Assembly (NCBI GenBank): GCA_016869275.1
Contig: VGEO01000003.1
Span: forward strand, 1-64,000
Length of the DNA stretch: 64,000 nt
Direction: 5' to 3'
Source: Alphaproteobacteria bacterium
Lineage (GTDB): Bacteria; Pseudomonadota; Alphaproteobacteria; SHVV01
Shown one piece after another: positions 19,033-64,000 of the stretch. Below the pieces are notes generated by a model. That model made no database searches. It was not told the origin of the DNA and saw only the letters and a list, made by a program, of their open reading frames with translations. Within the stretch, counting starts at the first letter, position 1, and every line of letters starts with the position of its first letter. Made by a program: the position numbers and the translations under genes.

Positions 19033-19036
19033 TGCC

Positions 19037-44292: not shown

Positions 44293-45471
44293 ATGCGCCA
44301 TGCCATCGTCCTATGGAGCGCCGGAGCGCTCGCGGCGGTCGCTCTCGCGAGCGCCTCCGCCGCGGCCGGGTCGATCGCGGTCGATAGCGCGACCGGGCGG
44401 ACCAATTACCTGGTCAGCCTCGACGCGATGGTGAGCAGTCTCCGCAACCTGTCGCAGACCTACCTCAACCGCGGCGTCACCAGCTTCACCGGAATCGAGC
44501 TCACCTACGATCCGAGCGTCGACCAGGCCTTGATGTACGGAACCAAGGGCTTCACCCAAGCCGACGCCGACTGGGCTCGCGCCAACTTGCGCATCTACGA
44601 CATCTACCGCCAGCTCGGCGGCAACGAGATCAACCTGAAGCAGCAGTATAGCCGCTCGGGCAACCAATTCTATGTCGGGCTCGACGGCTCGGGCGGGCAG
44701 TGGTTCGCGACCTTGGCCGACGCGCAAGGCTACATGTTCAAGCTGCTGGTCGGGCAGAGCGCCGAGATCCCGAAGGCGGTCAAAGCCGCGCTGCTCGCCG
44801 CCAATTCGAACGATCTCGCGACCGTGGTCGCGCGCGCGCGCGACGCCATGCTCGACGGCCGCGGCGTCGCTGCGACCGGGAGCTCGACGACCGTCACCTT
44901 CACCGGCACCGGCTTCAGCAACACCAACGGCACGCCGGTTGTGATCGCGCCGACCGGGATCACGGTGAGCAGCGTCACGTACGAGAGCTCGACCAAAATA
45001 ACGGCGACGCTCGCGATCGGGCAGTCGGCGCCAGCCGGGCTCACCAAGATACATCTCTTCAATGCCGGCAATACGTTCGTCCCGGTCGATACGTTCGACC
45101 TCCTGGTCGTTAGCGGCACCGGGTCGCTCACCCCGACCGCCGACGATCACGGCGATACGCCGATCACCGCGACCGCGCTCGCGACCGGGACCACCGTCAC
45201 CGGCACGATCGGGACCGCAACCGACAACGACGTCTTTCAGGTGACGCTCGCCGGCGCCGGTACCCTCAGCCTCGCCTCGTCGGGGCCGACCGACGTCAAT
45301 GTCCAGCTCGAGGACGTGAACGGCACCGTCATCGCCGCCGATGCCGACAGCGGCACCTGGTACAATTTCAGCTTGAGCCGCGCGCTCAGCGCCGGGACCT
45401 ATTTCGTGCGCGTGCTGCATTGCTGCCAGGGCACGGGTACCTACAGCGTGACCGCGACCTTCACGCCCTGA
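44293..45471 (+). CDS. secreted protein with IPT/TIG-like and pre-peptidase C-terminal (PPC) domains
   Basis: Signal peptide MRHAIVLWSAGALAAVALASASAAAG; VTFTGTGFSNTNGTPVVI...; DDHGDTPITATAL...GTIGTATDNDVFQVTLAGAGTLSL...AGTYFVRVLHCCQGTGTYSVTATF. Confidence 0.75.
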   Translation: MRHAIVLWSAGALAAVALASASAAAGSIAVDSATGRTNYLVSLDAMVSSLRNLSQTYLNRGVTSFTGIELTYDPSVDQALMYGTKGFTQADADWARANLRIYDIYRQLGGNEINLKQQYSRSGNQFYVGLDGSGGQWFATLADAQGYMFKLLVGQSAEIPKAVKAALLAANSNDLATVVARARDAMLDGRGVAATGSSTTVTFTGTGFSNTNGTPVVIAPTGITVSSVTYESSTKITATLAIGQSAPAGLTKIHLFNAGNTFVPVDTFDLLVVSGTGSLTPTADDHGDTPITATALATGTTVTGTIGTATDNDVFQVTLAGAGTLSLASSGPTDVNVQLEDVNGTVIAADADSGTWYNFSLSRALSAGTYFVRVLHCCQGTGTYSVTATFTP

Positions 45472-47716: not shown

Positions 47717-47762
47717 TCCTTTGGAGAAGCACGTAAATCTAGCGTCAAAACGGCCCGGAGTC

Positions 47763-48257
47763 TCACCTCCGCCGCCCCGGCGTCAACGAAATCCGTTCAC
47801 GATTGGCGCCCGAGCGGAGCGTGAGATGCTCGGGCGTGACCGCCTCGACCGTCCAGTCGTCGAGCGTGTCGCCGGGCCCGATCTCGCGGATCTTGCCGCC
47901 GCCAACCGGTTGCAGCTTGAGCGTGGTGCGGCTACCCGAGGCGATCACCCCGACCAGCCGGTAGCGGCCGAGGATCAGGTCGGAGCGGGCGGCACCGGGC
48001 GTGAGCCGCGCCGGCGTACCTTGTGGCTCGGCGCGGCGCGAAGCGTTGAAGATCGGTCGCGCCGTCGTCTCGGCGAGCGCGGCGAGCGCGGGCAACGCCA
48101 ATGGCGGCGCAGCGCGAGCGGCATCGCCGGCCGGCCCGGCGCTCGGGAGCGGACGCGGCGACTCGTCGAGCGGAATCGAGGCCGTTACCGCGACCGCCGC
48201 CGCCAGCACGGTGCAAACGACGACCAATAGGCGGGTATGGAGGTCGCGCGGAACCAT
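47763..48257 (-). CDS. GspC/GspN-like T2SS inner-membrane protein (TM + HR domain only)
   Basis: N-terminal TM; HR-like LILGRYRLVGVIASGSRTTLKLQPVGGGKIREIGPGDTLDDWTVEAVTPEHLTLRSG. Confidence 0.75.
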   Translation of the reverse strand: MVPRDLHTRLLVVVCTVLAAAVAVTASIPLDESPRPLPSAGPAGDAARAAPPLALPALAALAETTARPIFNASRRAEPQGTPARLTPGAARSDLILGRYRLVGVIASGSRTTLKLQPVGGGKIREIGPGDTLDDWTVEAVTPEHLTLRSGANRERISLTPGRRR

Positions 48258-48823
48258 CAGAACGCCCGCATGAAGCCGACCACCTGCAGCTCGACATCGA
48301 GCGGGCGCGGCGATTCGGCGGTGCGGCCGGTCCGCGCATGCACGAACATCTTGTCTATTACCAGCGCCGGCGTCGCCGTTTCGACCGCGTAGAGCACGCG
48401 CTGCAGGGAGCGCGTGTCGGCGGTGAAGACGATCCGAAGCGGGATGGCGCGGTGGTCACCGCGCCGTTCGACCGGGAGCGAAAAGAAACTGGTCGCGATC
48501 GCTCCCGACTCGGCGACCATCGTCTTCAAGCGTTCTTGCACCAGCGCGCTCGCCGTGGTCTCGCTCGGCGCCTCGATGAAAAGCCCGCTGACGCGCTGAC
48601 CCTTGGCAGCGCGGAGCTGCGCTTCGATGGCCGGCGCTTCCTTCAACAGCCGCTCGTAGCGCGCCAACCGTTCGACGGTCGCCTCGCGCTGGGCGCGGTC
48701 GGCGACAAACTTGCCGATCAGCGGATCGACGAGGCCGGCGTAGGCCAAGACGAGCACTGCCGCCGCGGCCGCCAGCGCCACGGCACGGGCGAGCGGCGTT
48801 AACGGCGCCAACGATCCGATCAT
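48257..48823 (-). CDS. gspM: T2SS protein M
   Basis: N-terminal TM, GspM-like size and topology, between L and C/N. Confidence 0.85.
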   Translation of the reverse strand: MIGSLAPLTPLARAVALAAAAAVLVLAYAGLVDPLIGKFVADRAQREATVERLARYERLLKEAPAIEAQLRAAKGQRVSGLFIEAPSETTASALVQERLKTMVAESGAIATSFFSLPVERRGDHRAIPLRIVFTADTRSLQRVLYAVETATPALVIDKMFVHARTGRTAESPRPLDVELQVVGFMRAF

Positions 48824-49908
48824 GGCTTCGCCACCGTTAGCATGAGCGCGAAGTGTTCGCGGCTGGTGAGCGGATCGCGGGTCACCGGCGTGCGGAAGCG
48901 GACGTTCGCAAACAGCCGCGAGGCCTCGAGCCTCGCCACCAACGCCGCCGCCGACAGCGACAGGCCTTCGATCTCGAGCTCCGATTCGGACAGCGTGAAT
49001 TGAACGAGCCAGGTGTCGTCGGGCAGCAGTCGGGCCAGCTCATCGATCAAGAGCACCGGCGAAGCCGCCTGCGCCTTGATCCGCACGACAGTGCCGGTGC
49101 CGGCGAGTTCGGCTTCGAGTTCGGCCGCGAGCTTGAGTGCGGCTTCGGCCGGCGCGCGCACGCGCGCGACCCGCTCGTCGAGCCGCGCGGTCGCGTGTTC
49201 GTGACGGACGAACGGGAGCGCGGCCAGGATCAGCGCCAAGGCCACGGTCGCCGCCGCGAGCCAGCGGTCGGCCCGCCGATAGCGTGGCAGCGGGCGCAAC
49301 CGCACGGTCGCATCGGCGGTTCGGACCAGCGGCGTCCCTGGCGTGCCGACCACGACCGCGACCGGGCTGACGCCAATCCGCGCGAGGTCGCCGAGCTGCC
49401 GTTCGACGGTTTCGTTGGGTACCACCGTGAGCGCGACCGTCAGGCGGCGGGCAGCGGCGTCGCGGCCGACGACCGCGTAGGTGAACCGGACCTGATCAGC
49501 GCGGAACGGCGTCTGTCGCTCCATCTCGTAGGCCAGGACCTGACGCAAGTTCTCCTCCGCCGCGAGCGGCAGCTCGATCGTCTTGAGGAGCGCCTGGTCG
49601 GGGGCGATCCGGAGTGCGATTCGCTCGAGATCGCCGTTGGCCCGTGCGACGAGACCGGCGACGGTTGCGCGCTCTGCCACGACATCCCTGGGCTCGGCCT
49701 TGGTCGCATGGCCAATCGCCGTGAGCCGGCCAGCGCGGTCGATGCCGATGTCGATTCCGGTCGCGGTCGCATCGATGACGACGAGGTCGGGGTCGAGCCC
49801 GAGCCCCCGGCGAACGCTCGCCGGCAGCAGCGCGCCGAGCTCGGCACCCCACCATGCGAGCGCGAGCGCAAGCACCCGCTCGCGCCCACCGATCAGCAGC
49901 GCCGCCAC
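48820..49908 (-). CDS. gspL: T2SS protein L (PilM/PilN-like)
   Basis: Actin-like ALRIAPDQALLKTIELPLAAEENLRQVLAYEMERQTPFRADQVRFTYAVVG, C-terminal TM and PilN-like domain. Confidence 0.9.
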   Translation of the reverse strand: MAALLIGGRERVLALALAWWGAELGALLPASVRRGLGLDPDLVVIDATATGIDIGIDRAGRLTAIGHATKAEPRDVVAERATVAGLVARANGDLERIALRIAPDQALLKTIELPLAAEENLRQVLAYEMERQTPFRADQVRFTYAVVGRDAAARRLTVALTVVPNETVERQLGDLARIGVSPVAVVVGTPGTPLVRTADATVRLRPLPRYRRADRWLAAATVALALILAALPFVRHEHATARLDERVARVRAPAEAALKLAAELEAELAGTGTVVRIKAQAASPVLLIDELARLLPDDTWLVQFTLSESELEIEGLSLSAAALVARLEASRLFANVRFRTPVTRDPLTSREHFALMLTVAKP

Positions 49909-49981
49909 AGTCGTTGCTCGCGTTTCATCGTTCTGAAAGCTAACACTCGCTTCTGCCGCCAGGCAACGAAGGCGACCGCCC

Positions 49982-50881
49982 TCACTCCGTCGCCGGCAGC
50001 GTTCGCCAATCCAGGAACAGGACCGGCCTGTCGGGACGAAAATGGAGGCCGACGACGGCTTCGCGCCCGACCGTGGTGCCGGCCGCGCCGGTTGCGCGCG
50101 CCTGGATCGCGAAGGCGACTTTGGCCGAGGGCACGAGATAGGGCTGGGCTTCGGCGAGCGGAGGCGGCGGCAGGGCGCCGCACCCGGGCAGGCGCGCGCG
50201 GAGTTCGACGTATTCGCGTGCGAGTCCGGGCCCGTAACCCGGGATCGCCGCCAGCGCCCCGGCCGGCGCCACGGTCGGATCGATCCCCGGTGCGTGGGAG
50301 CGGACCGTGACGAGCCCGTGCAGGCGATCCATGAGCGCGACCGTCATGCCGCGGACCGCGGCCAATTCGGCGGTCGTCTCGAACGGCGCGTCCTTGGCGT
50401 CGTAGCCGGCGCCGGCGCGGCGGTAATCTTCGTCTTCGGCGCCGAGCGGACGTCGTTCGGCGTCGCGATCGCGCCAATCCGCGACCGCGTCGGCCAAGGC
50501 CGCGGCCTCGTTGTCGGCCGCGCCGGCGGCGCGAAAAAGGCCGACCAACAGCGGCGGCGGGGCTTCGTTCAAGTCGACCTTGCCGCCTTCGTCGGCAATG
50601 GCGACCGTAAGCGGAACGCGCTCAAACGTGACCGCGCGCGGCCGGCCGTCGAAGCATGCCCCGGCGCCCGAGCCGGCGATCAGCGTCGCAATGCCGAGAT
50701 GAATTCCGGCCTCGGCCAGGTGCCGCGCTTGGATGCGATCGACCACGTTGCGGGCGAGGTCGGTCTCCTGGCGCGAGACCGCGGCAAGGCCGACCGCCAA
50801 TGCCGAAGCCAAGGCGACAATCCACAGCACGGCGATCAGCGCGATGCCGCTTTCGCGTGCAGCCGGCGGCCAGCCTCGCAT
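49982..50881 (-). CDS. gspK: T2SS minor pseudopilin K
   Basis: ESGIALIAVLWIVALASALAVGLA prepilin-like N-terminus; KVDLNEAPPPLLVGLFRA. Confidence 0.93.
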   Translation of the reverse strand: MRGWPPAARESGIALIAVLWIVALASALAVGLAAVSRQETDLARNVVDRIQARHLAEAGIHLGIATLIAGSGAGACFDGRPRAVTFERVPLTVAIADEGGKVDLNEAPPPLLVGLFRAAGAADNEAAALADAVADWRDRDAERRPLGAEDEDYRRAGAGYDAKDAPFETTAELAAVRGMTVALMDRLHGLVTVRSHAPGIDPTVAPAGALAAIPGYGPGLAREYVELRARLPGCGALPPPPLAEAQPYLVPSAKVAFAIQARATGAAGTTVGREAVVGLHFRPDRPVLFLDWRTLPATE

Positions 50882-51489
50882 CAGCGCACCTCGCGATCGA
50901 GCGCGGGCTGGACGATCAGGGGCGGCCACGGCCGTTGGCCGGCGCGGCGCTCGAACGCGATCCGCACCAAACTCGGCAATGCCGGCTGCTCTCGCCAGTC
51001 GGTGTGCCAGCGGCGGTCGCGATCCGGGGCCTTTTGCCCGAAATAGTCGATTTGCAGGCCGGCGAGCCCGGCAACGAGCACACGCCGGGCGAGCGCGTCC
51101 CGCGCGCCCCACGGCGCTTCGCCGAGGACGAGATCGACCCCGCCGCCGCGGCGTTCGGCCGCAAGCTCGAACGCGCGCACGCCGGGCCGGTCGAGGCCTG
51201 GAGGCAGGACGGCCGCGAACCGGACGCGCGCGCGCTCGCCCTCGAACGCGATGGTCGCGCGCTCGCGGTCCGCGATCAAAGGCTGGGCGTCGGCCAAACG
51301 CTCGCGGACGAACGTCGCCAGCAGCCGCAAGTCCTCGAGCTCGGCCTCGTGGACGTCGGCCCGGTTCAGGCCGAACGCACCGAGCTTGAGACCGGCGACG
51401 CCCGCGGTCGCAACCAGCGCGAGAATGCTGAGCGCGATCAGGAGCTCGAGCAAGGTAAAGCCGCCGTTGCGGCGGGAGCTAGCGCGCAC
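50881..51489 (-). CDS. gspJ: T2SS minor pseudopilin J
   Basis: NGGFTLLELLIALSILALVATAG type IV prepilin signal. Confidence 0.93.
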   Translation of the reverse strand: MRASSRRNGGFTLLELLIALSILALVATAGVAGLKLGAFGLNRADVHEAELEDLRLLATFVRERLADAQPLIADRERATIAFEGERARVRFAAVLPPGLDRPGVRAFELAAERRGGGVDLVLGEAPWGARDALARRVLVAGLAGLQIDYFGQKAPDRDRRWHTDWREQPALPSLVRIAFERRAGQRPWPPLIVQPALDREVR

Positions 51490-51898
51490 GGGCGGTCTCG
51501 CGCGGGCGGAGGCGAAGCGTCGCGAGCCTCACCAGCGGGGTCGACTCGCCGCTACGGGTCACCGTCACCTCGATCGCAACGGCGGTGAACGGCGTCGCCC
51601 TAAGTTTTTGGTCGAGATCGCGTTCGGGCACGATCGTGCTCCGGACGTGAAAGCGGTTGTCGAACACCGCTTCGGCAGTGCCAGAGGCGAGGTCTTCGAC
51701 GGTCGCCCGCGCGAGCTCGGAGTCGGCCAGGAGCGCCGCGACCATACGATCTTCGCTGGCGGCGAGGCTGCGCGTGCCCTGGCCGATCAGCCCGTAGAGC
51801 GCTGCCAACGTCGAGGCGACGATCGCAAACGCGACGATCGCCTCGAGCAGGGTGAAGCCGGCAGCGGGGGCCGCCGGCCGAAACTTACGGGGCGACAC
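51479..51898 (-). CDS. gspI: T2SS minor pseudopilin I
   Basis: AAGFTLLEAIVAFAIVASTLAALY. Confidence 0.9.
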   Translation of the reverse strand: MSPRKFRPAAPAAGFTLLEAIVAFAIVASTLAALYGLIGQGTRSLAASEDRMVAALLADSELARATVEDLASGTAEAVFDNRFHVRSTIVPERDLDQKLRATPFTAVAIEVTVTRSGESTPLVRLATLRLRPRETARAR

Positions 51899-52286
51899 GG
51901 ATGCGTCCGGTCAACGCCTCGACTTCGATCGTGCGCCGATCCTGGCCGCGGGCAAGCGCGACGACGACGCCGTTGGCGCTGCCGTCGGCGAGGAAGCGGA
52001 GCGGGCGGCCGTCGGCCGCGACGACGGTGTCGCGCGGGCGGGGGATCACGCGGGCGCGGCCGGCGAAGCGCACCGTGCTGCTCGCGGCATCGACGATCAC
52101 CTCGATGTCGCGGTTCTCGGCGATCGCCACGTTGCGCGCTTCGTGAAACGCAGCAGCGAACGCGCGCGTCGCCGATCCCAGCGTCGCGCCGCCTAAACCG
52201 ACGGTCGGCGCGACTACAAGCGCCAGCACCGCGGCGATTGCGATGACCAGAAGCAACTCGAACAGCGTGAACCCGGACGCGGGCAC
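51885..52286 (-). CDS. gspH: T2SS minor pseudopilin H
   Basis: ASGFTLFELLLVIAIAAVLALVVAP. Confidence 0.9.
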   Translation of the reverse strand: MPASGFTLFELLLVIAIAAVLALVVAPTVGLGGATLGSATRAFAAAFHEARNVAIAENRDIEVIVDAASSTVRFAGRARVIPRPRDTVVAADGRPLRFLADGSANGVVVALARGQDRRTIEVEALTGRIRVAP

Positions 52287-52291
52287 GGGAG

Positions 52292-52744
52292 TCAGCGCCA
52301 GTTGCCAATATCCCGGTTCTCGCCGTCGCCGCCCTCGCGGCCGTCGGCGCCGAGCGAGTAGATATCGAAGTCACGGCCGTGTTGGCTCGGGATGCGATAG
52401 AGGTAGGCGCGATCCCACGGATCGAGCGGAACTTTCCCGCTCTTGAGGTAGGGGCCGCTCCAGCGCGGCGCGTTGTCGGGCCGCTTCACCAAGACCTCGA
52501 GCCCTTCCGCCTGCGTCGGCAAGCGCCGCATATCGAGGCGGAAGAGGTCTACCGCCGCCTCGAAATTCTGGATCTGGAGCGCGGCGGTGTCCGACTTGCC
52601 GCGCCCCAAGAACGGAAAAATCTGGGTGCCGACCACACCGACCAGCAGACCCAGGATCACCAGCACGACCAGGAGTTCGAGCAGCGTGTAGCCGTCGTCC
52701 GATCGGGAACGGCGGCGGCGGGAACGGTCAAACCGCGAGCGCAT
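52292..52744 (-). CDS. gspG: T2SS major pseudopilin G
   Basis: DDGYTLLELLVVLVILGLLVGVV; LPTQAEGLEVLVKRP...WSGPYLKSGKVPLDPWDRAYLYRIPSQHG. Confidence 0.97.
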   Translation of the reverse strand: MRSRFDRSRRRRSRSDDGYTLLELLVVLVILGLLVGVVGTQIFPFLGRGKSDTAALQIQNFEAAVDLFRLDMRRLPTQAEGLEVLVKRPDNAPRWSGPYLKSGKVPLDPWDRAYLYRIPSQHGRDFDIYSLGADGREGGDGENRDIGNWR

Positions 52745-53972
52745 TGAGCCCGACGATAGCCGAGAAGATCGAAACCACAAGCACGGCGACGATCGCGCCG
52801 AGGACCAGCACCAACGCCGGCTCGAGCAACGCCGTCATTCGTTTCAAAGCGCGGGCGACGTCCTGGCGGTAAAGGTCGGCGACCCGCTGCATCACAACGT
52901 CGATACGGCCGGTCTCGTCGGAGATGCTGGCGAGTTCGATGAGCCGGATCGGCAGCAACGGCTCGGCGCGGACTGCGGCCGCGAAACTCGCGCCTTCGCG
53001 CACGCGGGCAGCGACCGCGCCGAAAGCCGCGGCCAGCGCCCGGTTCTTCACGGCCTCGGTCGCGAGCGGCAGCGCGGTCGCGAGCGGCGTACCGCCGCCC
53101 ACCAGAAGGGCCAGACCGCGCGCGAAGCGCTCGACCTCGAAGCGCAGCGCGAGCGGCCCGAACAGCGGGGCTCGCAGCCACGCGCGATGGACGCGGGCGG
53201 CAAACACAGGCTCTTCGAGCGCGGCCGCGAACGCGACCGCCGCCGCGACCAGCGCGGCGAGCAAGAGCCAGCCGTATTCGCGCACCAGTCCGGCCGCCCC
53301 CATGACCAGCCGGGTTTCGAGCGGAAGCGGGCGCCCCGACTCGCGGAACAAGAGCTCGAACTCGGGCACGACGAAGACCAATAGCAGCCCGACCGACGCG
53401 GCCGCCGCGGCGAGCACGATCAAGGGATAGGTCAGGGCCGAGCGCACGCTCTCTTTGACTTCCTCGGCTCGGCTCGCATAGGCGGCGTACTGCTCGAGCA
53501 CGCGGGGAAGGGCGCCGCCCGCCTCGCCGGCCCGCACCAGTGCGACGATCAAGGTCGGGAGCGCCGCGCCTTCGGCTTCGAGCGCGGCCGAGAACGGCTG
53601 CCCGCGCCGGAGGCGCTCGGCGAGGCGGATCGCGAGGGACTTCACGGTCGGCGTCGCCGCCGCCGCCGCGATGACGCCGAGGACACGATCGAGCGCGAGA
53701 CCGGCATCGAGCAGGGCCGCGGCCTCGGCCGCGAAAGCGGCGAGATCGCGGGGCGCGATCACATCCTTGGTTAAAATGGGCCGTCCCAGAACCGCGCGCA
53801 CGCGCTGGAGAAAGTCGCGCCGCGGGCGCGCCGCCGCGATCGGCACGATCTGGATCGGCAAGCGGTCGCCGGCGCGCAGCAGCGCGACGACCGCCGCTTC
53901 GTTCGCGGCCTCGACCTCGCCTTCGGCCGTTTCGCCGCTCGGCGCGGCCGCCTTGTAGCGAAAACGCGGCAC
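52728..53972 (-). CDS. gspF: T2SS inner-membrane platform protein F
   Basis: MPRFRYKAAAPSGETAEGEVEA, LLVGGGTPLATALPLATEAVKN, GRIDVVMQRVADLYRQDVARALKRMTALLEP. Confidence 0.96.
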   Translation of the reverse strand: MPRFRYKAAAPSGETAEGEVEAANEAAVVALLRAGDRLPIQIVPIAAARPRRDFLQRVRAVLGRPILTKDVIAPRDLAAFAAEAAALLDAGLALDRVLGVIAAAAATPTVKSLAIRLAERLRRGQPFSAALEAEGAALPTLIVALVRAGEAGGALPRVLEQYAAYASRAEEVKESVRSALTYPLIVLAAAAASVGLLLVFVVPEFELLFRESGRPLPLETRLVMGAAGLVREYGWLLLAALVAAAVAFAAALEEPVFAARVHRAWLRAPLFGPLALRFEVERFARGLALLVGGGTPLATALPLATEAVKNRALAAAFGAVAARVREGASFAAAVRAEPLLPIRLIELASISDETGRIDVVMQRVADLYRQDVARALKRMTALLEPALVLVLGAIVAVLVVSIFSAIVGLNALAV

Positions 53973-55700
53973 CTAGACCGCCCGCGACACGCGCATGACC
54001 TCGGCCACCGTGGTGGCACCGGCCGCGACCTTGGCGAAGCCGTCGGCAGCCAGCGTCCGCATGCCGCCGGCGCCGACCGCGCGGGCGATGGTATGCCAAT
54101 CGGCGCGCTCCATGATGAGCGTCCGTACCGCCTCATCGACTGCGAGCATCTCGGCGATCACGGTGCGGCCGACATACCCGGTGCCGCCGCACGCCGGGCA
54201 GCCGACCGCGCGGTAGAATACCGGCGCCGCACCGGCGGGATCGGCGGCAAGGCCAGCAAAAGCGAGTTCATCGCGCGCGGGCGTATACGGCGCGCGGCAG
54301 GCCGAGCACAGCGTTCGCACCAGCCGCTGCGCCACCACCGCGCGCAGGACCGACGCCAACAGGAAGCTCTCGATCCCCATGTCGAGCAGGCGGGTGACCG
54401 CGCTCGCGGCGTCGTTGGTGTGCAGCGTCGTCAGCACGAGGTGGCCGGTCAAAGCCGCTTGAACGCTGATCTCGGCGGTCTCGCGGTCGCGGATTTCGCC
54501 GATCATGAGGACGTCGGGATCGTGGCGGAGGGTCGCGCGAAGCACGTCGGCGAAGGCAAGGCCGATTTGCGGCTTGACCTGAATCTGATTGATCCCGGGA
54601 AATTCGTACTCGATCGGATCTTCGGCGGTGACGATCTTGCGCTCGGTCGCGTTCAAGCGTTTCAGTCCGGCATAGAGCGTCGTCGTCTTGCCGCTGCCGA
54701 CCGGACCGGTCACCAGGACGAGCCCGTGCGCAAGCTGCAGCACGTCGGTCAGGCGCGCGGCCAGCGCCGGGGCGAATCCCAACCGCTCGAAATCGAGCGG
54801 GCCGCGCGATTTGTCGAGCAGGCGCAGCACGACGCTTTCGCCGTATTGGACCGGAATGATCGAGACTCGGACGTCGAGCTCGCGGCCGCGGACGCTGGTG
54901 CGGATGCGGCCGTCCTGCGCGAGCCGTCGCTCGGCGGTGTTGAGGCCCGCCATCACCTTGATGCGATTGACGATGGCGGCGCGCAGGCTTGCCGGAGGCG
55001 GCGCCTGCTCGCGCAAGACCCCATCGATCCGGAACCGGATGCGCAGCCGGTCGACCAGCGGCTCGAGGTGGATGTCGGAGGCGCGCGCTTCGGTCGCTTC
55101 TTCGATCAAGGCATCCACGATCCGGATCACCGGCGCATCGCTCGCGCGGTCGCGAAGGCGCGCGGCATCGGCCGCATAATGGTCGCGGGTATCGGCGTCC
55201 GACCCGGCCGCGGCGCGCGCCTCGCTGCCATCGCCGTAGAGGCGGGCCAGCATCCGTTCGAGTTCGGCCGGGATCGCGACCCACGCTTCGACCTGCTTGC
55301 CAACCAGGAGTGCCATCGCATCCAGCGCATAGCGATCGAGCGGGTCGGCCATCGCCAGCGCGAGCGAGGCGTCGCGCTCTTCGAGCGGCAGGATCCGCGC
55401 TTCTTTCAAGAAACGGGGGGTAACCCGGCCGACCAGGACCGGGTTGTCGGGATAGTGCTCGGTGCGGGCGAGCGGGGCGCCAAGGTGTTCAGCCAGCGCA
55501 CGCGCCATGTCCTCCTCGGAAACGAGCCCGAGCCGCGTCAACACCAGATCCAACCGCTCGCCGGTCGAACGGCCCAAACTTTGGGCGCGGTCGAGCGCCA
55601 GCGAATCGAGTTTCCCGGAATCGATCAGAATATCGGCGAGGTCGCGGGTCACCGGCGGATGAGTGTGCTTTTTCCGTGGGTTAGGTCGCCCGGCTATCAT
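53973..55700 (-). CDS. gspE: T2SS ATPase E
   Basis: GPVGSGKTTTLYAGLKRL, DPIEYEFPGINQIQVKPQIGLAFADVLRATLRHDPDVLMIGEIRDRETAEI, CxxC pair near C-terminus. Confidence 0.96.
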   Translation of the reverse strand: MIAGRPNPRKKHTHPPVTRDLADILIDSGKLDSLALDRAQSLGRSTGERLDLVLTRLGLVSEEDMARALAEHLGAPLARTEHYPDNPVLVGRVTPRFLKEARILPLEERDASLALAMADPLDRYALDAMALLVGKQVEAWVAIPAELERMLARLYGDGSEARAAAGSDADTRDHYAADAARLRDRASDAPVIRIVDALIEEATEARASDIHLEPLVDRLRIRFRIDGVLREQAPPPASLRAAIVNRIKVMAGLNTAERRLAQDGRIRTSVRGRELDVRVSIIPVQYGESVVLRLLDKSRGPLDFERLGFAPALAARLTDVLQLAHGLVLVTGPVGSGKTTTLYAGLKRLNATERKIVTAEDPIEYEFPGINQIQVKPQIGLAFADVLRATLRHDPDVLMIGEIRDRETAEISVQAALTGHLVLTTLHTNDAASAVTRLLDMGIESFLLASVLRAVVAQRLVRTLCSACRAPYTPARDELAFAGLAADPAGAAPVFYRAVGCPACGGTGYVGRTVIAEMLAVDEAVRTLIMERADWHTIARAVGAGGMRTLAADGFAKVAAGATTVAEVMRVSRAV

Positions 55701-55739
55701 ACGCGGGCGGGCGCCGCGGCGCCACGCGGGCGAACAGCT

Positions 55740-56495
55740 CTAGAACATGCCCCCCGGATCCGCGATCCAAACGAGCCAGATCGCCGGTGCCAGATAGGCG
55801 CCGAACGGGATCGGCGCCGCGAGATCGATCCGCTGCTCCCGCCATTGGCGGAGACCGGTCACGGCGAGCGCGGCGAGCGCCGCGGCGAGGACGACGGTCG
55901 CCAGCGGCTCCGGGCCGAGCCATGCTCCGGCCGCGGCCATCAGCTTGGCGTCGCCGAGGCCCAAGCCCTCGCGGCCGCGGAAGCGGCGGTACCCGAGCCG
56001 GATCGCCAGGAACAGCGCAAACGCCCCGCCGGCAGCGAGGGCGTGGCTCGCGAGCCGCTCCGGCGCCAACCACGCGGTCGCGGCGAACCCGGCGAGCGCC
56101 AGGGGCAGCGTTATAGGGTCGGGGAGGACCATGGCGCGGGCATCGGCCGCAGCGAGCGCCAGCAAGGCCCAGCCGAGCCCGGCGGCGAGCCAGACTTGGC
56201 CGCCCCCGAAGCGAGCCACGGCCATGATCGCGATGGCGAGCGCCAGCGCTTCGACGGCCGGCTCGAACCGACCGATGGCGCTCCGGCAGTAGCGGCAGCG
56301 GCCGCCGAGCACGAGCCAGCTCGCGATCGGAATCAAGTCCCTGACCCCCAGGACGTGGCCGCACGCCGCGCACCGCGAGCGTCCGCTCCAGGGGCTGCCG
56401 CCCGCCGCGATGCGGTGGGCGAGGGTCGCGGCAAAACTTCCGAAAACGGGGCCGGCCAGCGTAACGAGAATCGATTGCAACGGCGTTTCGAGCAC
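55740..56495 (-). CDS. gspO: prepilin peptidase (A24)
   Basis: CAACGHVLGVRDLIPIASWLVLGGRCRYC, GLGLGDAKLMAAAGAWLG catalytic loop. Confidence 0.93.
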   Translation of the reverse strand: MLETPLQSILVTLAGPVFGSFAATLAHRIAAGGSPWSGRSRCAACGHVLGVRDLIPIASWLVLGGRCRYCRSAIGRFEPAVEALALAIAIMAVARFGGGQVWLAAGLGWALLALAAADARAMVLPDPITLPLALAGFAATAWLAPERLASHALAAGGAFALFLAIRLGYRRFRGREGLGLGDAKLMAAAGAWLGPEPLATVVLAAALAALAVTGLRQWREQRIDLAAPIPFGAYLAPAIWLVWIADPGGMF

Positions 56496-56585: not shown

Positions 56586-57929
56586 ATGGGTTATTCGATT
56601 CGCAAGGCCCTGCGCTGGCTGTCGATCGCAGGTGTCGGGGTGCTGTTGCTGGCGGCCGCCGCGAGCGCGCAACAACTTCCCTCCCAGAGCAAGGATGTCC
56701 ATTTGGGGGTCGCGAGCTGCGCCGGTTCGACCTGCCACGGTGCGGTGACGCCGTGGAAGGACTCGAACGTCCTGCAGAACGAGTACGTGACCTGGACCCG
56801 CCAGGACAAGCACGCCAAGGCCTACGAGGTCCTGCACAACGAAAAATCGAAGCGGATCGCGGCTAATTTGGGGCTCCCTAACGCCCATACTGCCAAAGTC
56901 TGCCTCGACTGCCACGCCGACTACCCGGCGCAAGAGGCGCGTGGGCGCACGTTCCAGGTCTCCGACGGCGTCGGCTGCGAAGCCTGCCACGGCGGCGCCG
57001 TGCGCTGGCTCGGGCTCCACGTCTCCGGCACCTCGACCCACGACGAAAACGTCAAGCTCGGCATGTATCCGACCACCGACCCCGTCAAGCGCGCCGAGCT
57101 CTGCTTGTCGTGCCACTTCGGCAACGAGACCAAGTTCGTCACCCACCGCATCATGGGTGCCGGCCATCCACGCATGAGCTTCGAGCTCGACACCTTCACC
57201 ACGATTCAGCCGGCGCACTTCGTCGTCGACGCCGACTACCGCAAGCGCAAGAAAGTCTGGAACGGCGTCCAGACCTGGGCGATCGGCCAGGCGATCCAGC
57301 TCCGCGACCTGCTGGACGCTTTGACCTCGCCGACCCGGAGCCGCGACGGCATCTTCCCCGAACTCGTGCTGTTCGATTGCCACGCCTGCCATCACCCGAT
57401 GTCGAACGTGCGCTGGCAGCCGCGCGAAAGCGCCAAGCTCGGGCCGGGCATCGTGCGCCTGAACGACTCCAACATGATCATGTTGCGGATCGTCGCCAGC
57501 CACATCGACCCGGCCTCGGGCACCAAGCTCCGCGAGCTCACGATCCGGCTGCACCAGGCCTCGACCCAGGGGCCGCAGCAGACTACCGACGCCGCCAAGG
57601 AGATGCGGACCCTGGTCGGCGGGCTGGTCGACCGCTTCGCCAAGCACAATTTCGAACGCAAGGATGTCGAAGCGCTCTTGAACGGGGTGATCCAAGAAGG
57701 CATCAAGGGCGAGTTCGTCGACTACGCCACCGCCGAGCAGGCGACCATGGCGCTGGCGGCGATCTTGAATGCGATGAAGAACACCGGGCTCGTCAACGAT
57801 GCCCAATTCAAACGCATGAACGACGCCTTGAACGAAGCCTACAACGCCACCGCGAAGGACGAGGCCTATCGTCCCGAAGCGTTCGTCGCGGCGATGAAGA
57901 AACTCAACGAAACGATCCCGCGCTCGTAG
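56586..57929 (+). CDS. multiheme cytochrome c (c554-like family)
   Basis: Signal peptide; CXXCH: CLDCH, CEACH, CLSCH, CHACH; plus one CX4CH (CAGSTCH). Confidence 0.88.
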   Translation: MGYSIRKALRWLSIAGVGVLLLAAAASAQQLPSQSKDVHLGVASCAGSTCHGAVTPWKDSNVLQNEYVTWTRQDKHAKAYEVLHNEKSKRIAANLGLPNAHTAKVCLDCHADYPAQEARGRTFQVSDGVGCEACHGGAVRWLGLHVSGTSTHDENVKLGMYPTTDPVKRAELCLSCHFGNETKFVTHRIMGAGHPRMSFELDTFTTIQPAHFVVDADYRKRKKVWNGVQTWAIGQAIQLRDLLDALTSPTRSRDGIFPELVLFDCHACHHPMSNVRWQPRESAKLGPGIVRLNDSNMIMLRIVASHIDPASGTKLRELTIRLHQASTQGPQQTTDAAKEMRTLVGGLVDRFAKHNFERKDVEALLNGVIQEGIKGEFVDYATAEQATMALAAILNAMKNTGLVNDAQFKRMNDALNEAYNATAKDEAYRPEAFVAAMKKLNETIPRS

Positions 57930-58002: not shown

Positions 58003-59184
58003 TCACGGGGTACCGGGCGCGAGCACGTCGCGGTAAACGGTAAGCGTCGCTTGAGCGATGGCCGCGACCCCCAGGCGCGCTTCGGCCATGCGCCGGCCAG
58101 CCGCGCCGAGCCGCGCGCGACGCGCCGGGTCGCCAGCGAGCGCGATCACCGCCGCCGCCAGCGCTTCCGGATCGCCCGGCGCGACCAGGAGGCCGTTCTC
58201 TTCATCGACGATGACTTCGCGGCATCCGGGAATGTCGGTCGCCACGACGGCGCGGCCAGCAGCAAGCGCTTCGAGCAGGACCTTGGGCACGCCTTCGCCG
58301 TAGGTCGAGGGCAGGCAGACGACCGCGGCCGCGGCCAGGACCTCGTCCATATCGTCGCGCCGGCCCCACCATTCGACCGCCCCCTCCGCCGCCCAGGCCC
58401 GCAACTGCGCCTCGGGCACCGCGCGCGGGTTGCTCGGGTGCGTATCGCCGACCAATACGAAGCGGACTTCGGCACCGCGCCGGCGCGCGATTCGCGCCGC
58501 CTCGACGAACTCGGCGATGCCCTTGTCCCAGATCAGCCGTGCCGCCAGCAGCGCCAAAGGGACGCCCGCCGCCGCGGGGCGCGGATGAAAGCGATCGAGC
58601 TCGACCCCGGCGCCCGGGATCACCGTTGCCATCCCGCGCGGGAATCCGGCCGCGCTGACGATGGTCTCGAAATCGCCGCGGTTCTGGAAAATAGCCCGCA
58701 CGTTCGGATGGCCAAGCCCGATCCGGAGCAGCGCGAGAACGAACGGCCGTATCAACGCCAAGCTCGGCTCGCGCCCGGCGAACACATGGCCCAATCCGGT
58801 GAATGCCATCACCACCGCAGGCACCGCCAGCAAGCGCGCCAGCACGCCGCCATAGAGGATCGGCTTGATGGTGAGAAGGTGCAGGAGGTCGGGCTTGATG
58901 GCGCGAAAGAGCCGCGTCATCGCGAACAGCGTTCTCAACTCCTCGAACGGATTGCGGCCGCGGCGCGAAACGGGGAGCGGGTGAAAGCGGATTCCCTCGC
59001 GCTCGAGGACGGCGATGTCGAACGACGCGGGCGCCCAAACGTGATCGGTCGGCGCGGCCAAATGCACGCGCGCGCCTTCGGCGATCGCGGCGCGCGCGAT
59101 CTGAATACGGTGCGAAAAAAAGAAATACGCCTCATTGGCGACGAAAAGGATCGTCGTGCCACGGAGGAGCGAGGGGGCCGCCAT
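58003..59184 (-). CDS. family-1/4 glycosyltransferase
   Basis: TTILFVANEAYFFFSHRIQIARAA, LIWDKGIAEFVEAA, LPSTYGEGVPKVLLEALAAGRAVVATDIPGCREVI. Confidence 0.9.
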   Translation of the reverse strand: MAAPSLLRGTTILFVANEAYFFFSHRIQIARAAIAEGARVHLAAPTDHVWAPASFDIAVLEREGIRFHPLPVSRRGRNPFEELRTLFAMTRLFRAIKPDLLHLLTIKPILYGGVLARLLAVPAVVMAFTGLGHVFAGREPSLALIRPFVLALLRIGLGHPNVRAIFQNRGDFETIVSAAGFPRGMATVIPGAGVELDRFHPRPAAAGVPLALLAARLIWDKGIAEFVEAARIARRRGAEVRFVLVGDTHPSNPRAVPEAQLRAWAAEGAVEWWGRRDDMDEVLAAAAVVCLPSTYGEGVPKVLLEALAAGRAVVATDIPGCREVIVDEENGLLVAPGDPEALAAAVIALAGDPARRARLGAAGRRMAEARLGVAAIAQATLTVYRDVLAPGTP

Positions 59185-59209
59185 ACCCGCGCGTCGGCCC
59201 CGGCTCGGT

Positions 59210-62200
59210 CTAATTGGCGGCGGCCGACTTGCGCTCGCCCGGTTTCGCCGGCACGAACTCGCGCGGGCGGATTTCCTCGTGGGTGAACCACGGCCGCCCC
59301 TGCGCGTCGAGATAGAACTTTTCCATCTCTTTTTTCGTGAAAGGCCGCGATCCGAGCCGTCCGAACACCGCGATCTGGCCGCCGGTTTCGTCGACCGCGC
59401 GGTCGCGCTCGAGGCCCTTGGAGAGCGAGAGCGCCGGCCAGCGCGTCTTGCGCCAGGCAATGAGCTCGGGCTTCACCTCGGGGCTGAAGCCGTAGAAATT
59501 GGGCTGCGTCTCGGGCGAGAACAGCTGGATCACCTTGAGCCCGTTCCGGCCGTCGGCGACGTAAGCGAACAGCGACGCATTGGTCGCACCGACCGTTACG
59601 TCGCGCGCGTCGCTGATCGCGCCACCGGCCGTGAACTTCATGTAGACCGTTGGTTTGCGCGGTTTCTCGATATCGATGATGACCAAGCCTTCGGCGCCGG
59701 CCGCTACATAGGCGTAGGTGCGGACCGGCCAAACGCGGTTCGCACCTTTGAGCGGAATTGTCGCCTCGGGAACCGCCGCGGGTTTCGCCATGTTGCTCAC
59801 GTCGAACACCTTGAATCCCTCGGCATCGGTAGCAAACAAGTAGCGGAACTGCAGCGCGGTCGAGGTGCCGTTCCGAAGCGGCAGCACGCCCTCGATCTTG
59901 GGCTTCAATGGATCGTCGAGGTTGAGGACGACGAGGCCGGCGTCAGCGACGATGTAGGTGTAGTAGCCGGCCATGGTGATGTGGCGGGCGCCCTTCAGGA
60001 TGCCGTTCTCGTTCCAGGTGAGGGCGCGAGTGAGGAAATTGTTGCGCGGCTCGCCGTCGGCCAACGTGTTGACGTCGGTGACGATCAGCCCTTCCTCGGC
60101 GTCGGTGATGAAAACGTAGTTGTAGATCGGGTGGAACGGCTGCTCCTGGTTCTCGACCCGCATCAGGTCGCCCTTGTTACGGGCGGCGTGTATGTTCTGC
60201 GCGTTGCCCGGCACTGCGACGCAGGTCGCGTTCTTGCTCGCGATGTGGGTGTCGTGGCCCAGGGGGCCGAACGGCGCCGAGATGATCCGCTGGGAGATGC
60301 CCTTGTTGCCGATCGAGGCGACGTCGTAGACGCGGTAGCCCGAGCGGCCCTCGGCGACGTGGAGATACTCGCCGCGGAGCTGGAGACACCCCGACCGGTT
60401 CGAGCGGTGCGAGGTCGCGGCAAAGTCGAACTCCAACTCGCGGCCGCGATCCAAGTGCTGCTGGTAATAATCGGGGTAGGCATACTTATGGAGGTAGCTG
60501 CCGATCACTGCCTGCGGTTCGTCGAACTCGGTGACCTTGATCGCCTCGATACCGCCCTCCTCGCCGACATAGGCGTGCCAACCGACGAAGGTTGGGAAGT
60601 TGGTGCCGATCGCGAGCGTGTTGGCCATGATCGCGTTGTTGTCGTCGTCGATCGACAAGTGGCAGTCGTTGCAGGTCTTGGTCTCGGTCTTCCGCTCGGT
60701 GTGCGGGAAGTGCGGCGCGAACGCCTGGCTCGAATAGCCGGGCGCCGCGATCGGCGGCTGCTGCACGTAGATGCGCTCGCGGTTGATGTTCTGCGAGGAC
60801 AGCACTAATGCCGAGGTCGAACGGACCGGTGCGACCTTGTTGCCCTTGGTGGTCTGGTGGCGGCCCAAGTGGAAGACGTCGTCGCGCGCGACCTGCGGGT
60901 TATAGGTCGCATAGTTCCGGAGCACGCGGCCTTCGTACTTGTGGGACGCCGTCTTCCAGTTAGCCTGGATCGGCAGGTGGCAGCCGGCGCAGCTCGTGGT
61001 CCACGAGAGATGGCAGGTGAAGCACAGCATCTCGTCATCCTTGTGGGCGCGATCGTCCCTGGCGACGCCGGGGCCCCACTTCAAGGACGCGGTATCCTTG
61101 GACATCAACTTGGCGCGCGCGGCCTTGGGGTTGTACTCCTTGTGGTCGGGATCGACGGTCTGCTTGACCAGGCTCATCTCCCACTCGAGGTTGGGCCACA
61201 GCGCCGAGCGCTGGATCAGCGTATCGCCGCGCCATTCGAAGCGCCGTCGCCCGTCGCCCAGGCGAATGAGCGAGAGGTCGTAGCCTCCACGCAGCGCCGC
61301 CGGACCGCTCGTGACCAAGGTCGGCAATTTGTCGACCGTGCCGTGGCAGTCGGCGCAATCGATCTCGACCGCGTTGGCGACCTCGGTCTGGATGTAGCCG
61401 TTGCCGTGCGCATCCTGGGCGAAGTGGCAGTCGATGCAGTGCATGCCCTTGTCGACGTGGATCGAGGACATGTGCACGGCCTTCTTGAATTTCTGCGGAT
61501 CGTCGTTCGAGACGATCTTGCCGTCGGCGTCCAGCAGGTTGCCCTTGCGGTCGCGTTTATAGATGGCGCGGAAGTTCCAGCCGTGGCCGTGGTAATCGGC
61601 GAACTGGGTGTCCTTGTTCTTGGGATTGACGTCGGTCCAGACGTTTTTCATGAAGTCGACGTCGCCCCACAGGCCGCGGATCGCCGCTTCCTCGGGATTG
61701 CGTTCGTTGATCTTCCGGATCTCGGCGTTCGACGGGTATTTCTGCTGCTTCGGCCACATGTTGGGCGCGTCCGACTCGTAATCCCACATCGTGTAGCCCA
61801 TGAAGCTGTTCACGAAGATGTTGGGCTGGTGCATGTGGCAAACGATGCACTGCGCGGTCGGGATCTGGCGCGAGAATTCGTGCCGGATCGGATGGCCTTC
61901 CTCGTCCTTGGGAATGGTCGGGTCGATGGTCTGGGTCTTGCCCTCGTGGCCGTAGATCGAATAGGGGCCGGAGTGGCGCGGATCGCGGTCGTTGGCGTAG
62001 ACGATGTGGCAGCCGCCACAGCCCGAGGTCCGGTAGTCGCCGGGCTGGTCGTTGGTTCCCATGAACCACATGAACGGGTCGTTGAGGCGCGTCTTGTGGA
62101 TGTTGAGCACCGGGACGGCAATGCGTAAGCCGGTGCCGGGGCCGCGCATCGACTGGCGGATGTCGGGGCGGCCCGGCTCCTCGAGCCGCTGAATCTGGCC

Positions 62201-63085
62201 GAGCGAGTTGGGCAACCCGATCTCGGGGAATTGGGTGACGATGTTGCGGCCGCCGCGCTCGAAGATGCGGAAGATGTCGCCGGGCGGAATGGTCTCGAAG
62301 GCGGGCAGCGGCACCAGCTTCTCGATGATGCCCCACTTCTTCATGTCGGGGGTGTAGCCCGGGCTGGTGATCGCGGCTGGCTGGCCGTCACGGGTATAGG
62401 CCTCGCCGACGATGTAGTTCTTGAACGGCAGGATGCCGTTGTTATACGCGCCGCCGCCCCACAGCATGGCGCCGGTCGACATCAGGTGCCGCTCGGCCGC
62501 CTGGATGATCGGCAGGTGGCAGGCCCCGCAGGCTTCGCGGGCGATCCGGTAGTCGGACGGATTGACGAAGCGGACATACTCGGGGCTTTCCTTGTTGAGA
62601 AGCGTATAGCCGCCCTCGGGGTTGCGGCTGCGCGGGTAGCCCCAGGTCTCGGGCATCCGCGGCATCACGTGTGCCTTCTGCATCGCCCCGACATAGGCAG
62701 CATCGCCGAACAGCAACGGGTCGATTGCGCCGTGGTGGGCCTCTTCACCCGGCTTATGGTGAAGCGCGGCCTTTTCCTTCTTGTAGGTGCGCTCGTACTT
62801 CGATCCTTCCGGCTTGCGCACCGCCGCGTCGCCGCCGTGGCAGTCGGTACAGCCCAGCACGATCGCCGGGTTGGCGTGCATCGTCTTCTGGTCGGTCGCG
62901 GTGTGGCAGGTCATGCAGCCGGCGCTCTTGGCGTCGGCTTGGGCTTGGGTTTGCGATGCCGGCGCCGGCGGCGCGGTCACGTATTTGATGTCGAGCGGCT
63001 TCTCGCCTTCAGAGGCGAAGCCCACTCCCGCCAGGGTCACGCCCAGGGCGACGGTCGCGGCAATGACGAAGCGCATCGCGGTCAT
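59210..63085 (-). CDS. decaheme cytochrome c fused to C-terminal LVIVD-type beta-propeller
   Basis: Signal peptide MRFVIAATVALGVTLAGVGFA; ten CXXCH (CMTCH, CTDCH, CGACH, CGGCH, CIVCH, CIDCH, CADCH, CFTCH, CAGCH, CNDCH); then about six LVIVD-like units (e.g. YNYVFITDAEEGLIVTDVNTL, TYAYVAAGAEGLVIIDIEKPRKP). Confidence 0.9.
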   Translation of the reverse strand: MTAMRFVIAATVALGVTLAGVGFASEGEKPLDIKYVTAPPAPASQTQAQADAKSAGCMTCHTATDQKTMHANPAIVLGCTDCHGGDAAVRKPEGSKYERTYKKEKAALHHKPGEEAHHGAIDPLLFGDAAYVGAMQKAHVMPRMPETWGYPRSRNPEGGYTLLNKESPEYVRFVNPSDYRIAREACGACHLPIIQAAERHLMSTGAMLWGGGAYNNGILPFKNYIVGEAYTRDGQPAAITSPGYTPDMKKWGIIEKLVPLPAFETIPPGDIFRIFERGGRNIVTQFPEIGLPNSLGQIQRLEEPGRPDIRQSMRGPGTGLRIAVPVLNIHKTRLNDPFMWFMGTNDQPGDYRTSGCGGCHIVYANDRDPRHSGPYSIYGHEGKTQTIDPTIPKDEEGHPIRHEFSRQIPTAQCIVCHMHQPNIFVNSFMGYTMWDYESDAPNMWPKQQKYPSNAEIRKINERNPEEAAIRGLWGDVDFMKNVWTDVNPKNKDTQFADYHGHGWNFRAIYKRDRKGNLLDADGKIVSNDDPQKFKKAVHMSSIHVDKGMHCIDCHFAQDAHGNGYIQTEVANAVEIDCADCHGTVDKLPTLVTSGPAALRGGYDLSLIRLGDGRRRFEWRGDTLIQRSALWPNLEWEMSLVKQTVDPDHKEYNPKAARAKLMSKDTASLKWGPGVARDDRAHKDDEMLCFTCHLSWTTSCAGCHLPIQANWKTASHKYEGRVLRNYATYNPQVARDDVFHLGRHQTTKGNKVAPVRSTSALVLSSQNINRERIYVQQPPIAAPGYSSQAFAPHFPHTERKTETKTCNDCHLSIDDDNNAIMANTLAIGTNFPTFVGWHAYVGEEGGIEAIKVTEFDEPQAVIGSYLHKYAYPDYYQQHLDRGRELEFDFAATSHRSNRSGCLQLRGEYLHVAEGRSGYRVYDVASIGNKGISQRIISAPFGPLGHDTHIASKNATCVAVPGNAQNIHAARNKGDLMRVENQEQPFHPIYNYVFITDAEEGLIVTDVNTLADGEPRNNFLTRALTWNENGILKGARHITMAGYYTYIVADAGLVVLNLDDPLKPKIEGVLPLRNGTSTALQFRYLFATDAEGFKVFDVSNMAKPAAVPEATIPLKGANRVWPVRTYAYVAAGAEGLVIIDIEKPRKPTVYMKFTAGGAISDARDVTVGATNASLFAYVADGRNGLKVIQLFSPETQPNFYGFSPEVKPELIAWRKTRWPALSLSKGLERDRAVDETGGQIAVFGRLGSRPFTKKEMEKFYLDAQGRPWFTHEEIRPREFVPAKPGERKSAAAN

Positions 63086-63087
63086 CC

Positions 63088-64000
63088 CTAGTAGGTCAAG
63101 ATCAGGTTGGCGAGCACGGAATAGAAGAAATCCTCGCTGTCGTTTCGCGCACGGTAGATGTCCCTGAAACCGTCGCCCGGCACCAGCACTGCCGCCGACA
63201 GCCGCCCGACGATGTTCTGGATGAAAGTCGGGCGATAGATCAGCGCGATCGACAGGTCATAGCCGATCTCGTCATCGATCGCGTTCTGGTTGCGCAGGAA
63301 TTCGAGCGAATCGGTGGTGTCGAACGAGAGCCGGTTGAAGTTGGTCGAGACACGGAACTCGGGCGTGATATCGAAGTCGGTGCCGACGCCCAACAGGATC
63401 AGGCCGGGGTTGATGAAGTTCGACTGGCCGTGCTCCTTCGAGGTGCGCAGATCGGTGAGCATGCCGTTGCGCGGCGTGAGCGCGATGCCGCCGCCGCCGA
63501 TGAAGGGGATCTGCTGACGTATGAAATAGCTGGTGTCGGCACCGGCGAACTGTGGGTTCTCGAAGATCGCCGAGAAGCCGCTGGCCTTGCCGTCGGTCGG
63601 GTCGTTGTCGCCGGAGGCGTACGCGGCTTGGGCACGCACGCGAACCCAGCTGAAGTCCCACGATACTTCGGCGGCGGCGAAATAGGCGCGAATGTCGGCG
63701 CTCGAGCCGTCGCCGGCATACTGGTTGTGGTCGTCCTTGCCGAAGGCATAGTAGAGCGAGCCGGTCAGGTTGAGCCGGCCGAAATGGCCGTCGCCGTTCA
63801 ACCCCGCGTAGGTCACGCGGTACTTTCGCGGCCGCTGGTCGCCGAGCGGCGCCGGACGTTCCTGGAACTCGTTCTCGTTGAAGAACGGCCGGCGGTCGTT
63901 CTCGCGATTGTCGTTGTGCGCGACCACGGCTTGGCTGGTGAACCCGAGCACCGGCCAATCCTGGCGGAACAAGTTGACGAAGTAGATGTCGTCGTCGCGC
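63088..64000 (-). CDS. outer-membrane beta-barrel protein, N-terminus beyond window end
   Basis: Alternating amphipathic strands (GRLNLTGSLYYAFG, IRAYFAAAEVSWDFSWVRVRAQAAYASG, FRVSTNFNRLSF), C-terminal aromatic NLILTY. Frame open to base 64000 (RDDDIYFVNLFRQDWPVLGFTSQ). Confidence 0.75.
   Translation of the reverse strand, partial: RDDDIYFVNLFRQDWPVLGFTSQAVVAHNDNRENDRRPFFNENEFQERPAPLGDQRPRKYRVTYAGLNGDGHFGRLNLTGSLYYAFGKDDHNQYAGDGSSADIRAYFAAAEVSWDFSWVRVRAQAAYASGDNDPTDGKASGFSAIFENPQFAGADTSYFIRQQIPFIGGGGIALTPRNGMLTDLRTSKEHGQSNFINPGLILLGVGTDFDITPEFRVSTNFNRLSFDTTDSLEFLRNQNAIDDEIGYDLSIALIYRPTFIQNIVGRLSAAVLVPGDGFRDIYRARNDSEDFFYSVLANLILTY

Follow-up and report, generated by a model that had tools for sequence, protein, structure and literature searches.

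An AlgE-like outer-membrane barrel, a propeller-bearing decaheme cytochrome and their conserved redox gene neighborhood in Proteobacteria

Most work on systems that combine an outer-membrane beta-barrel with multiheme cytochromes has been done on anaerobes that respire metals and on iron oxidisers. In MtrCAB, MtoAB and PioAB, the barrel gene adjoins a decaheme cytochrome gene, the barrels of the MtrB/PioB type consist of 26–28 strands, and electrons are fed in from quinol, with CymA as the inner-membrane multiheme donor in the case of MtrCAB. The selenite/tellurite cluster of Geobacter, extHIJKLMNOPQS, encodes a porin that is thought to serve for substrate entry, several multiheme cytochromes and a cytochrome b (PMC5877670), and the Uet complex of Candidatus Tenderia electrophaga includes a barrel, a large multiheme cytochrome with 11 haems, separate beta-propeller (NHL) proteins, triheme carriers and a peptidyl-prolyl isomerase (PMC10734462).

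The window analyzed here is a 64,000-nt stretch of DNA, namely, bases 1–64000 of the 83,483-nt contig VGEO01000003.1 from the draft genome of an alphaproteobacterium (GCA_016869275.1; 3.6 Mb, 95.75% complete, 6.5% contamination); coordinates beyond 64000 continue the window numbering into the same contig. At the end of the window, a gene for an outer-membrane barrel precedes one for a decaheme cytochrome with a C-terminal LVIVD propeller (hereafter propeller-decaheme), and beyond the window end, the gene set continues with an HbpS-like protein, a decaheme cytochrome anchored to the membrane and carrying a forkhead-associated (FHA) domain (FHA-decaheme), a b561-like protein, and an oxidoreductase with flavin (FAD), cyclic nucleotide monophosphate (cNMP)-binding and Fe-S domains. 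The order of transcription on the minus strand is oxidoreductase, b561-like protein, FHA-decaheme, small exported protein, HbpS-like protein, barrel, propeller-decaheme, and a c554-like cytochrome gene on the opposite strand converges on this run (Table 1). With about even confidence, these genes can be taken to represent an undescribed, widespread electron export line of aerobic Proteobacteria, in which a conserved, NAD(P)H-fed inner module, controlled by cyclic nucleotides and possibly by phosphorylation, would serve at least two unrelated barrel/multiheme terminal modules. A more specific proposal, held at slightly less than even confidence, is that the set constitutes the outer-membrane terminal module of such an envelope-spanning, NAD(P)H-powered line, with the propeller-decaheme acting as a substrate-specific reductase.

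The collection scan yielded at least 586 genomic stretches that encode a relative of the propeller-decaheme. Neighbors were counted in the best 80 of these, which were picked by the cytochrome, so that the counts are conditional on its presence: the barrel is found in 77 loci, the HbpS-like protein in 69, the FHA-decaheme in 59, the c554-like protein in 58, the oxidoreductase in 57 and the b561-like protein in 56, and many of the missing neighbors correspond to contig ends. The barrel gene lies directly 5' of the cytochrome gene in every locus where the contig allows, and because barrel homologues are present in 77 of the 80 loci, chance pairing is excluded. The initial annotation of this locus, which described a candidate electron conduit operon of barrel, decaheme cytochrome and glycosyltransferase, was therefore right about the barrel–cytochrome adjacency. 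Its third member drops out: no homologue of the glycosyltransferase is found nearby in any of the 80 loci, which places this gene outside the set (its start is also corrected, to the ATG at 59184, giving 393 aa, rather than 59460, and the 485-aa open reading frame (ORF) is too long). The decaheme ORF does follow the barrel directly, with an ATG at 63085, 2 nt past the barrel stop codon; the annotated length of 1291 aa is probably too great, the second ATG, at 63076, being the likely start of the signal peptide. The c554-like gene, whose orthologue accompanies the set in the loci counted above, had been overlooked.

The seven-protein set spans Alpha-, Beta- and Gammaproteobacteria, either in order or as two facing cassettes. 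Three layouts are seen, namely, a single run as in the source genome, a run in which, as in Betaproteobacteria, the c554-like and oxidoreductase genes follow that of the cytochrome, and a pair of cassettes that face each other, as in sphingomonads. Aerobes such as Sphingobium and Haliea are among the closest relatives, and the closest named record is a metagenome-assembled genome of an alphaproteobacterium from deep Lake Baikal, with a cytochrome 85% identical. In the 30 loci where all seven genes are full length, pairwise distances between the proteins are correlated at r 0.85–0.94, to which the common descent of the hosts contributes. Among 385 evenly drawn alphaproteobacterial genomes, 28 encode the propeller-decaheme (five weak partial matches left out) and 36 the FHA-decaheme, with both present in 28/28; among 239 genomes of Gammaproteobacteria (the class of genome G715), the respective numbers are 10 and 12, with both in nine, and the single exception that lacks the FHA-decaheme (G961) is a draft 88% complete. 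The respective Fisher P values, 1e-35 and 4e-13, ignore phylogeny; the positive genomes span many families.

Some carriers have further peculiarities. One gammaproteobacterial genome (G849) harbors two copies of the system (L161 and L162). In Sphingobium strains, the whole set resides on megaplasmids of ~1 Mb; 13 plasmid records match the cytochrome, and the neighborhood was read in one. On plasmid pTomTYG64a (AP027328.1, L163), the set adjoins cpdA and a CcmH-like gene. The set proteins are annotated as hypothetical in Sphingobium sp. TomTYG64.

The window holds the C-terminal part of the barrel, and extension past 64000, which the initial annotation recommended, recovers the full protein together with a second, FHA-anchored decaheme cytochrome and the supply genes. 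The AlphaFold2 (AF2) model of the barrel has 18 long strands (predicted local distance difference test score 79.6), and in a Foldseek comparison with the PDB, the top 13 matches are all to the alginate exporter AlgE (best match E 2e-18; template-modelling score by target up to 0.72), followed by the OprD/Occ porins, with MtrB absent from the best 50 matches. The likeness is in the 18-stranded fold; identity to these proteins is 11–13%, and unlike them, the barrel here has a long proline-rich N-terminus and a multiheme neighbor. The Alginate_exp profile (PF13372) gives 25.0 bits with the partial barrel and 20.7 bits with the full one, below the cut-off of 25.2, and PF11854 (MtrB_PioB) matches neither version. 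The possibility, allowed for in the initial annotation, that the complete barrel would turn out to belong to an unrelated porin family is thus half borne out: the fold is AlgE-like, with OprD/Occ next, and not that of MtrB/PioB. Of the 70 strongly conserved strand residues, 61 are on one face of the barrel (mean of shuffles 46.6; 61 was not reached in any of 20,000 shuffles), and this face is polar (52%, compared with 28% on the other). As modelled, the barrel has a conserved hydrophilic lumen, which suits a pore with selectivity or one that closely holds a partner protein and does not suit a simple analogue of MtrB. An uptake-like barrel of the AlgE/OprD type with such a lumen would also suit iron or haem acquisition, or defence against redox stress, in which case a chelate or haem would enter through the barrel, the HbpS-like protein would serve as haem binder and reducing power would come from the cytochromes, and the exported protein with three HbpS stretches beside the barrel points in the same direction. 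The recurrent neighbors, however, include no TonB-dependent receptor or haem transporter, and seven redox proteins would be a heavy investment for assimilation, so that this explanation is very unlikely.

The propeller-decaheme contains 10 CXXCH motifs, as do 80 of the 80 homologues, and LVIVD repeats that score well over the curated cut-off (PF08309, 49.2 bits against 20.2). AF2 models the propeller fold of the C-terminus at high confidence and Foldseek agrees, with surface or periplasmic propellers as the most similar structures; the cytochrome does carry its own propeller, as originally proposed. It has a cleavable signal peptide. A lipoprotein anchor was considered and is not credible, given that the three lipobox-like strings sit within signal-peptide cores or upstream. 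Neither the DmsE-family nor the OmcA/MtrC-family cut-off is reached by this protein, the haem domain shows a weak local similarity to ExtM (58.4 bits; cut-off 800), and searches of PDB sequences with the cytochrome and barrel profiles found no relative. The FHA-decaheme likewise scores 13.9 bits with TIGR03508 (DmsE family), for which the cut-off is 192.2, and falls short of the OmcA/MtrC-family cut-off as well. Membership in the Mtr, Ext and AlgE families is accordingly rejected by the curated cut-offs. Among 20 carriers tested, PF11854 is found in one; the other 19, including the source genome, have none. The initial annotation saw no separate MtrA/MtrC pair in the neighborhood; the lack of MtrB in the source genome is in line with its view, but further multiheme cytochromes do occur nearby, contrary to its picture of the locus.

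Compared with the described systems, the set shares with MtrCAB, MtoAB and PioAB the adjacency of a barrel gene and a decaheme gene, and with MtrCAB an inner-membrane multiheme donor, the FHA-decaheme in place of CymA; it differs in the AlgE-like barrel, the lack of a lipoprotein, and an NAD(P)H oxidoreductase with cNMP-binding domains instead of the quinol feed. With Ext, it shares the clustering of a porin, several multiheme cytochromes and a cytochrome b, but the porin is a different one, the propeller is fused to the cytochrome, the FAD/cNMP/Fe-S oxidoreductase is present, and neither a rhodanese (ExtH) nor a Rieske (ExtO) gene was identified among the conserved neighbors. The resemblance to Uet, compared by description only, lies in the combination of a barrel, a large multiheme cytochrome and propeller proteins; the haem number, the separate propellers, the triheme carriers and the isomerase set Uet apart. 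Judging by sequence, the set appears to belong among the barrel–multiheme redox systems of the envelope while falling outside the Mtr and Ext types by the tests applied. A literature search that covered few subscription journals and no preprints found no paper describing the seven-protein set, nothing relevant on LVIVD multiheme cytochromes and, on the combination of FHA and ten haems, one table row only (PMC10734462, Table 1); the Sideroxydans magnetite paper does not mention FHA or cNMP proteins.

The proteins of the set differ in the degree of conservation. Of the seven, the propeller-decaheme is conserved best (mean identity 0.66, minimum 0.59, between classes), and the FHA-decaheme, the putative inner wire, is the least conserved (mean identity 0.34), whereas in Geobacter and Shewanella, inner-membrane cytochromes evolve slowly and outer-membrane and extracellular ones fast (PMC12977616). 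This opposite gradient favors a substrate-specific enzyme over a mineral-facing wire; it is suggestive rather than decisive and is the best available discriminator between the two. Genes for a haem-copper oxidase (COX1) are present in 20/20 carriers tested. The named carrier isolates are mainly known as aerobes; together with the oxidase, this implies that anaerobic mineral respiration is not an obvious use of the set. These observations bear on the alternative closest to the initial annotation, a true outer-membrane conduit in which part of the decaheme, or the c554-like protein, is docked inside the barrel or spans it and electrons are delivered to insoluble or large extracellular acceptors. 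The obligate barrel–cytochrome pairing, the several multiheme wires that feed this pair, the surface-type propeller fold, the linkage to type II secretion and the service of the same inner module to a second, unrelated barrel/multiheme pair (see below) all speak for a conduit, whereas the strand number and AlgE/Occ fold of the barrel, the cytochrome without a lipid anchor, the reversed conservation gradient (PMC12977616), and the aerobic character of the carriers speak against it. On balance, a conduit is unlikely, if still a serious contender; what persists from the initial annotation is a redox role in the envelope, and the notion of an MtrAB-type conduit is weakened by the AlgE-like barrel and the enzyme-like conservation.

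An envelope redox role is likely because a full electron-supply chain adjoins the barrel/cytochrome pair. The oxidoreductase has Pyr_redox, two cNMP and Fer4 domains and 16 Cys that are invariant and fall into four groups of the [4Fe-4S] type; five His are invariant in the b561-like protein, which is predicted to carry two b haems; the FHA-decaheme, in 55 homologues, has 10 invariant CXXCH motifs and exactly 10 other invariant His, which fits ten bis-His haems; and the c554-family protein, with four CXXCH and one CX4CH, is a pentaheme. The oxidoreductase is expected to be cytosolic, and the protein families suggest NAD(P)H as the donor and outward flow. Electrons would then pass from NAD(P)H to the FAD/four-[4Fe-4S] oxidoreductase with its two cNMP-binding domains, on to the b561-like membrane protein, the membrane-anchored FHA-decaheme wire in the periplasm and the pentaheme c554-like carrier, and finally, to the propeller-decaheme, whose partners at the outer membrane would be the AlgE-like barrel and the HbpS-like exported protein. 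In this favored reading, the propeller-decaheme would be a substrate-specific terminal reductase located either in the periplasm, at the mouth of the barrel, or on the cell surface after type II secretion, with the barrel as a substrate entry pore or dock rather than a sheath around a haem wire as in MtrB.

The same chain could conceivably run inward, with the propeller-decaheme oxidising an outside or periplasmic donor, such as Fe(II), Mn(II) or an organic compound, and periplasmic carriers passing the electrons to the quinone pool or oxidase. COX1 in the tested carriers is compatible with this direction, and so is the ten-haem 'Forkhead-associated protein' (cluster 403) found in 27/87 genomes of iron-oxidising Gallionellaceae, with an FHA head and ten haems like the FHA-decaheme, to which it is likened by description only; it has been classed as 'Other', without context or function (PMC10734462 Table 1). 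Inward flow is nevertheless quite unlikely, considering that an FAD/NAD(P) oxidoreductase forms the inner end and that reduction of NAD(P)+ from such donors is uphill, with no coupling site seen in the set.

Neighboring genes suggest cyclic-nucleotide control of the proposed export line: a cpdA-like phosphodiesterase (annotated as CpdA in Sphingobium sp. TomTYG64) recurs in 14 loci and CHASE2-cyclases adjoin the set in seven. A PP2C phosphatase is encoded near the set in nine gammaproteobacterial loci, and in seven of these its neighbor is an FHA protein.

The inner part of the system is not tied to a single outer part. In three genomes that encode the FHA-decaheme and lack the propeller-decaheme (G061 and G378, Alphaproteobacteria; G829, Gammaproteobacteria), the inner genes and c554 adjoin another pair, a multiheme protein of 600–641 aa that contains five CXXCH, together with a barrel-like protein (525–550 aa) that matches nothing in Pfam and shows no similarity to the window barrel at the profile level. 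The occurrence of the inner module beside this non-homologous pair indicates that terminal modules are exchangeable, and the simplest reading of these gene arrangements would be an unchanging electron supply to which one or another outer-membrane module is joined. The inner module is accompanied by c554 but by no nearby barrel in two more genomes (G053 and G257), and in G002 and G947, the loci are interrupted by contig ends.

At lower coordinates in the window, beside the redox set, lies a type II secretion cluster with pseudopilins, GspF, GspE, a prepilin peptidase and a GspD (45626–47395) that scores over the curated cut-off. Type II secretion is the reported route for MtrC and OmcA of Shewanella. 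GspD is encoded in 22/28 carriers, compared with 8/25 other genomes and 0/5 genomes with the inner module only, and in nine genomes it shares a contig with the cytochrome at a distance of 10.8–20.7 kb (window: 11.8 kb). This linkage, which is confounded by phylogeny, is a hint of surface delivery. The type II secretion neighborhood recurs in several alphaproteobacterial families and in one betaproteobacterial locus (L097). Large exported proteins encoded next to GspD (42123–45468, plus strand) are candidate substrates of the type II system; in L150, a protein encoded near the set (18236–19900) resembles them at the N-terminus.

Several points weigh against the reductase proposal and its details. 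The AF2 model of the haem domain of the propeller-decaheme is of low confidence, too poor for comparison of haem packing, so that it reveals neither an active site nor the order of the haems, and because conserved His outside the CXXCH motifs outnumber the haems, an open catalytic haem is not identifiable. Conservation of the terminal protein could come from tight protein–protein packing instead of catalysis, and the oxidoreductase could work in the reverse direction. Phospho-control via the FHA domain is doubtful: PF00498 is over the cut-off, but the phosphothreonine-binding residues are poorly conserved (the binding Ser is not conserved, being N45 in the source protein, and the Arg is present in 80%). 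Finally, two complete carriers have no GspD, so that the type II secretion route to the surface is not obligatory, and type II secretion is rejected as an obligate partner.

Table 1. Coordinates of the features discussed, in window numbering unless a locus is given.
Feature	Coordinates	Strand	Remarks
FAD/NAD(P) oxidoreductase, two cNMP-binding domains and ferredoxin-type clusters	69911–72490 (ORF)	-	Domain matches
b561-like membrane protein	69005–69832	-	
FHA-decaheme (FHA domain, one membrane helix, ten CXXCH)	67310–68995	-	
Small exported protein	66785–67216	-	
Exported HbpS-like protein	64893–66779	-	Three HbpS stretches
18-stranded AlgE-like outer-membrane barrel	63088–64908 (in window: 63088–64000, C-terminus)	-	606 aa, signal peptide
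Exported decaheme c-type cytochrome with C-terminal LVIVD beta-propeller	59210–63076	-	1288 aa (likely start)
c554-family periplasmic multiheme cytochrome	56586–57929	+	447 aa, signal peptide, PF13435
Type II secretion cluster, GspD through prepilin peptidase	45542–56495	-	ORFs; GspD over curated cut-off
Second barrel and pentaheme pair	L144:12759–16162; L147:5260–8758; L158:16884–19899		Alpha- and Gammaproteobacteria

A separate group of 10- to 12-haem cytochromes resembling ExtM is present in five loci (L031, L042, L044, L045 and L041) from alphaproteobacteria and other members of the phylum. The three that were scanned score 169–238 bits with ExtM, under the 800-bit cut-off, and these proteins may represent relatives of the Geobacter selenite system in other bacteria.

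Bacteria that carry the seven-gene version of a barrel–multiheme system described here live in soil, in association with plants, in freshwater or in the sea and are mainly known as aerobes; among them are isolates of Sphingobium for which complete megaplasmids are available. The exchange of terminal modules provides a direct handle on the diversification of such systems, and the cultured sphingomonads that carry the set make the question of its function testable. If the set does export electrons from NAD(P)H, these bacteria would have a new means of reducing some substrate at the outer membrane or beyond it.

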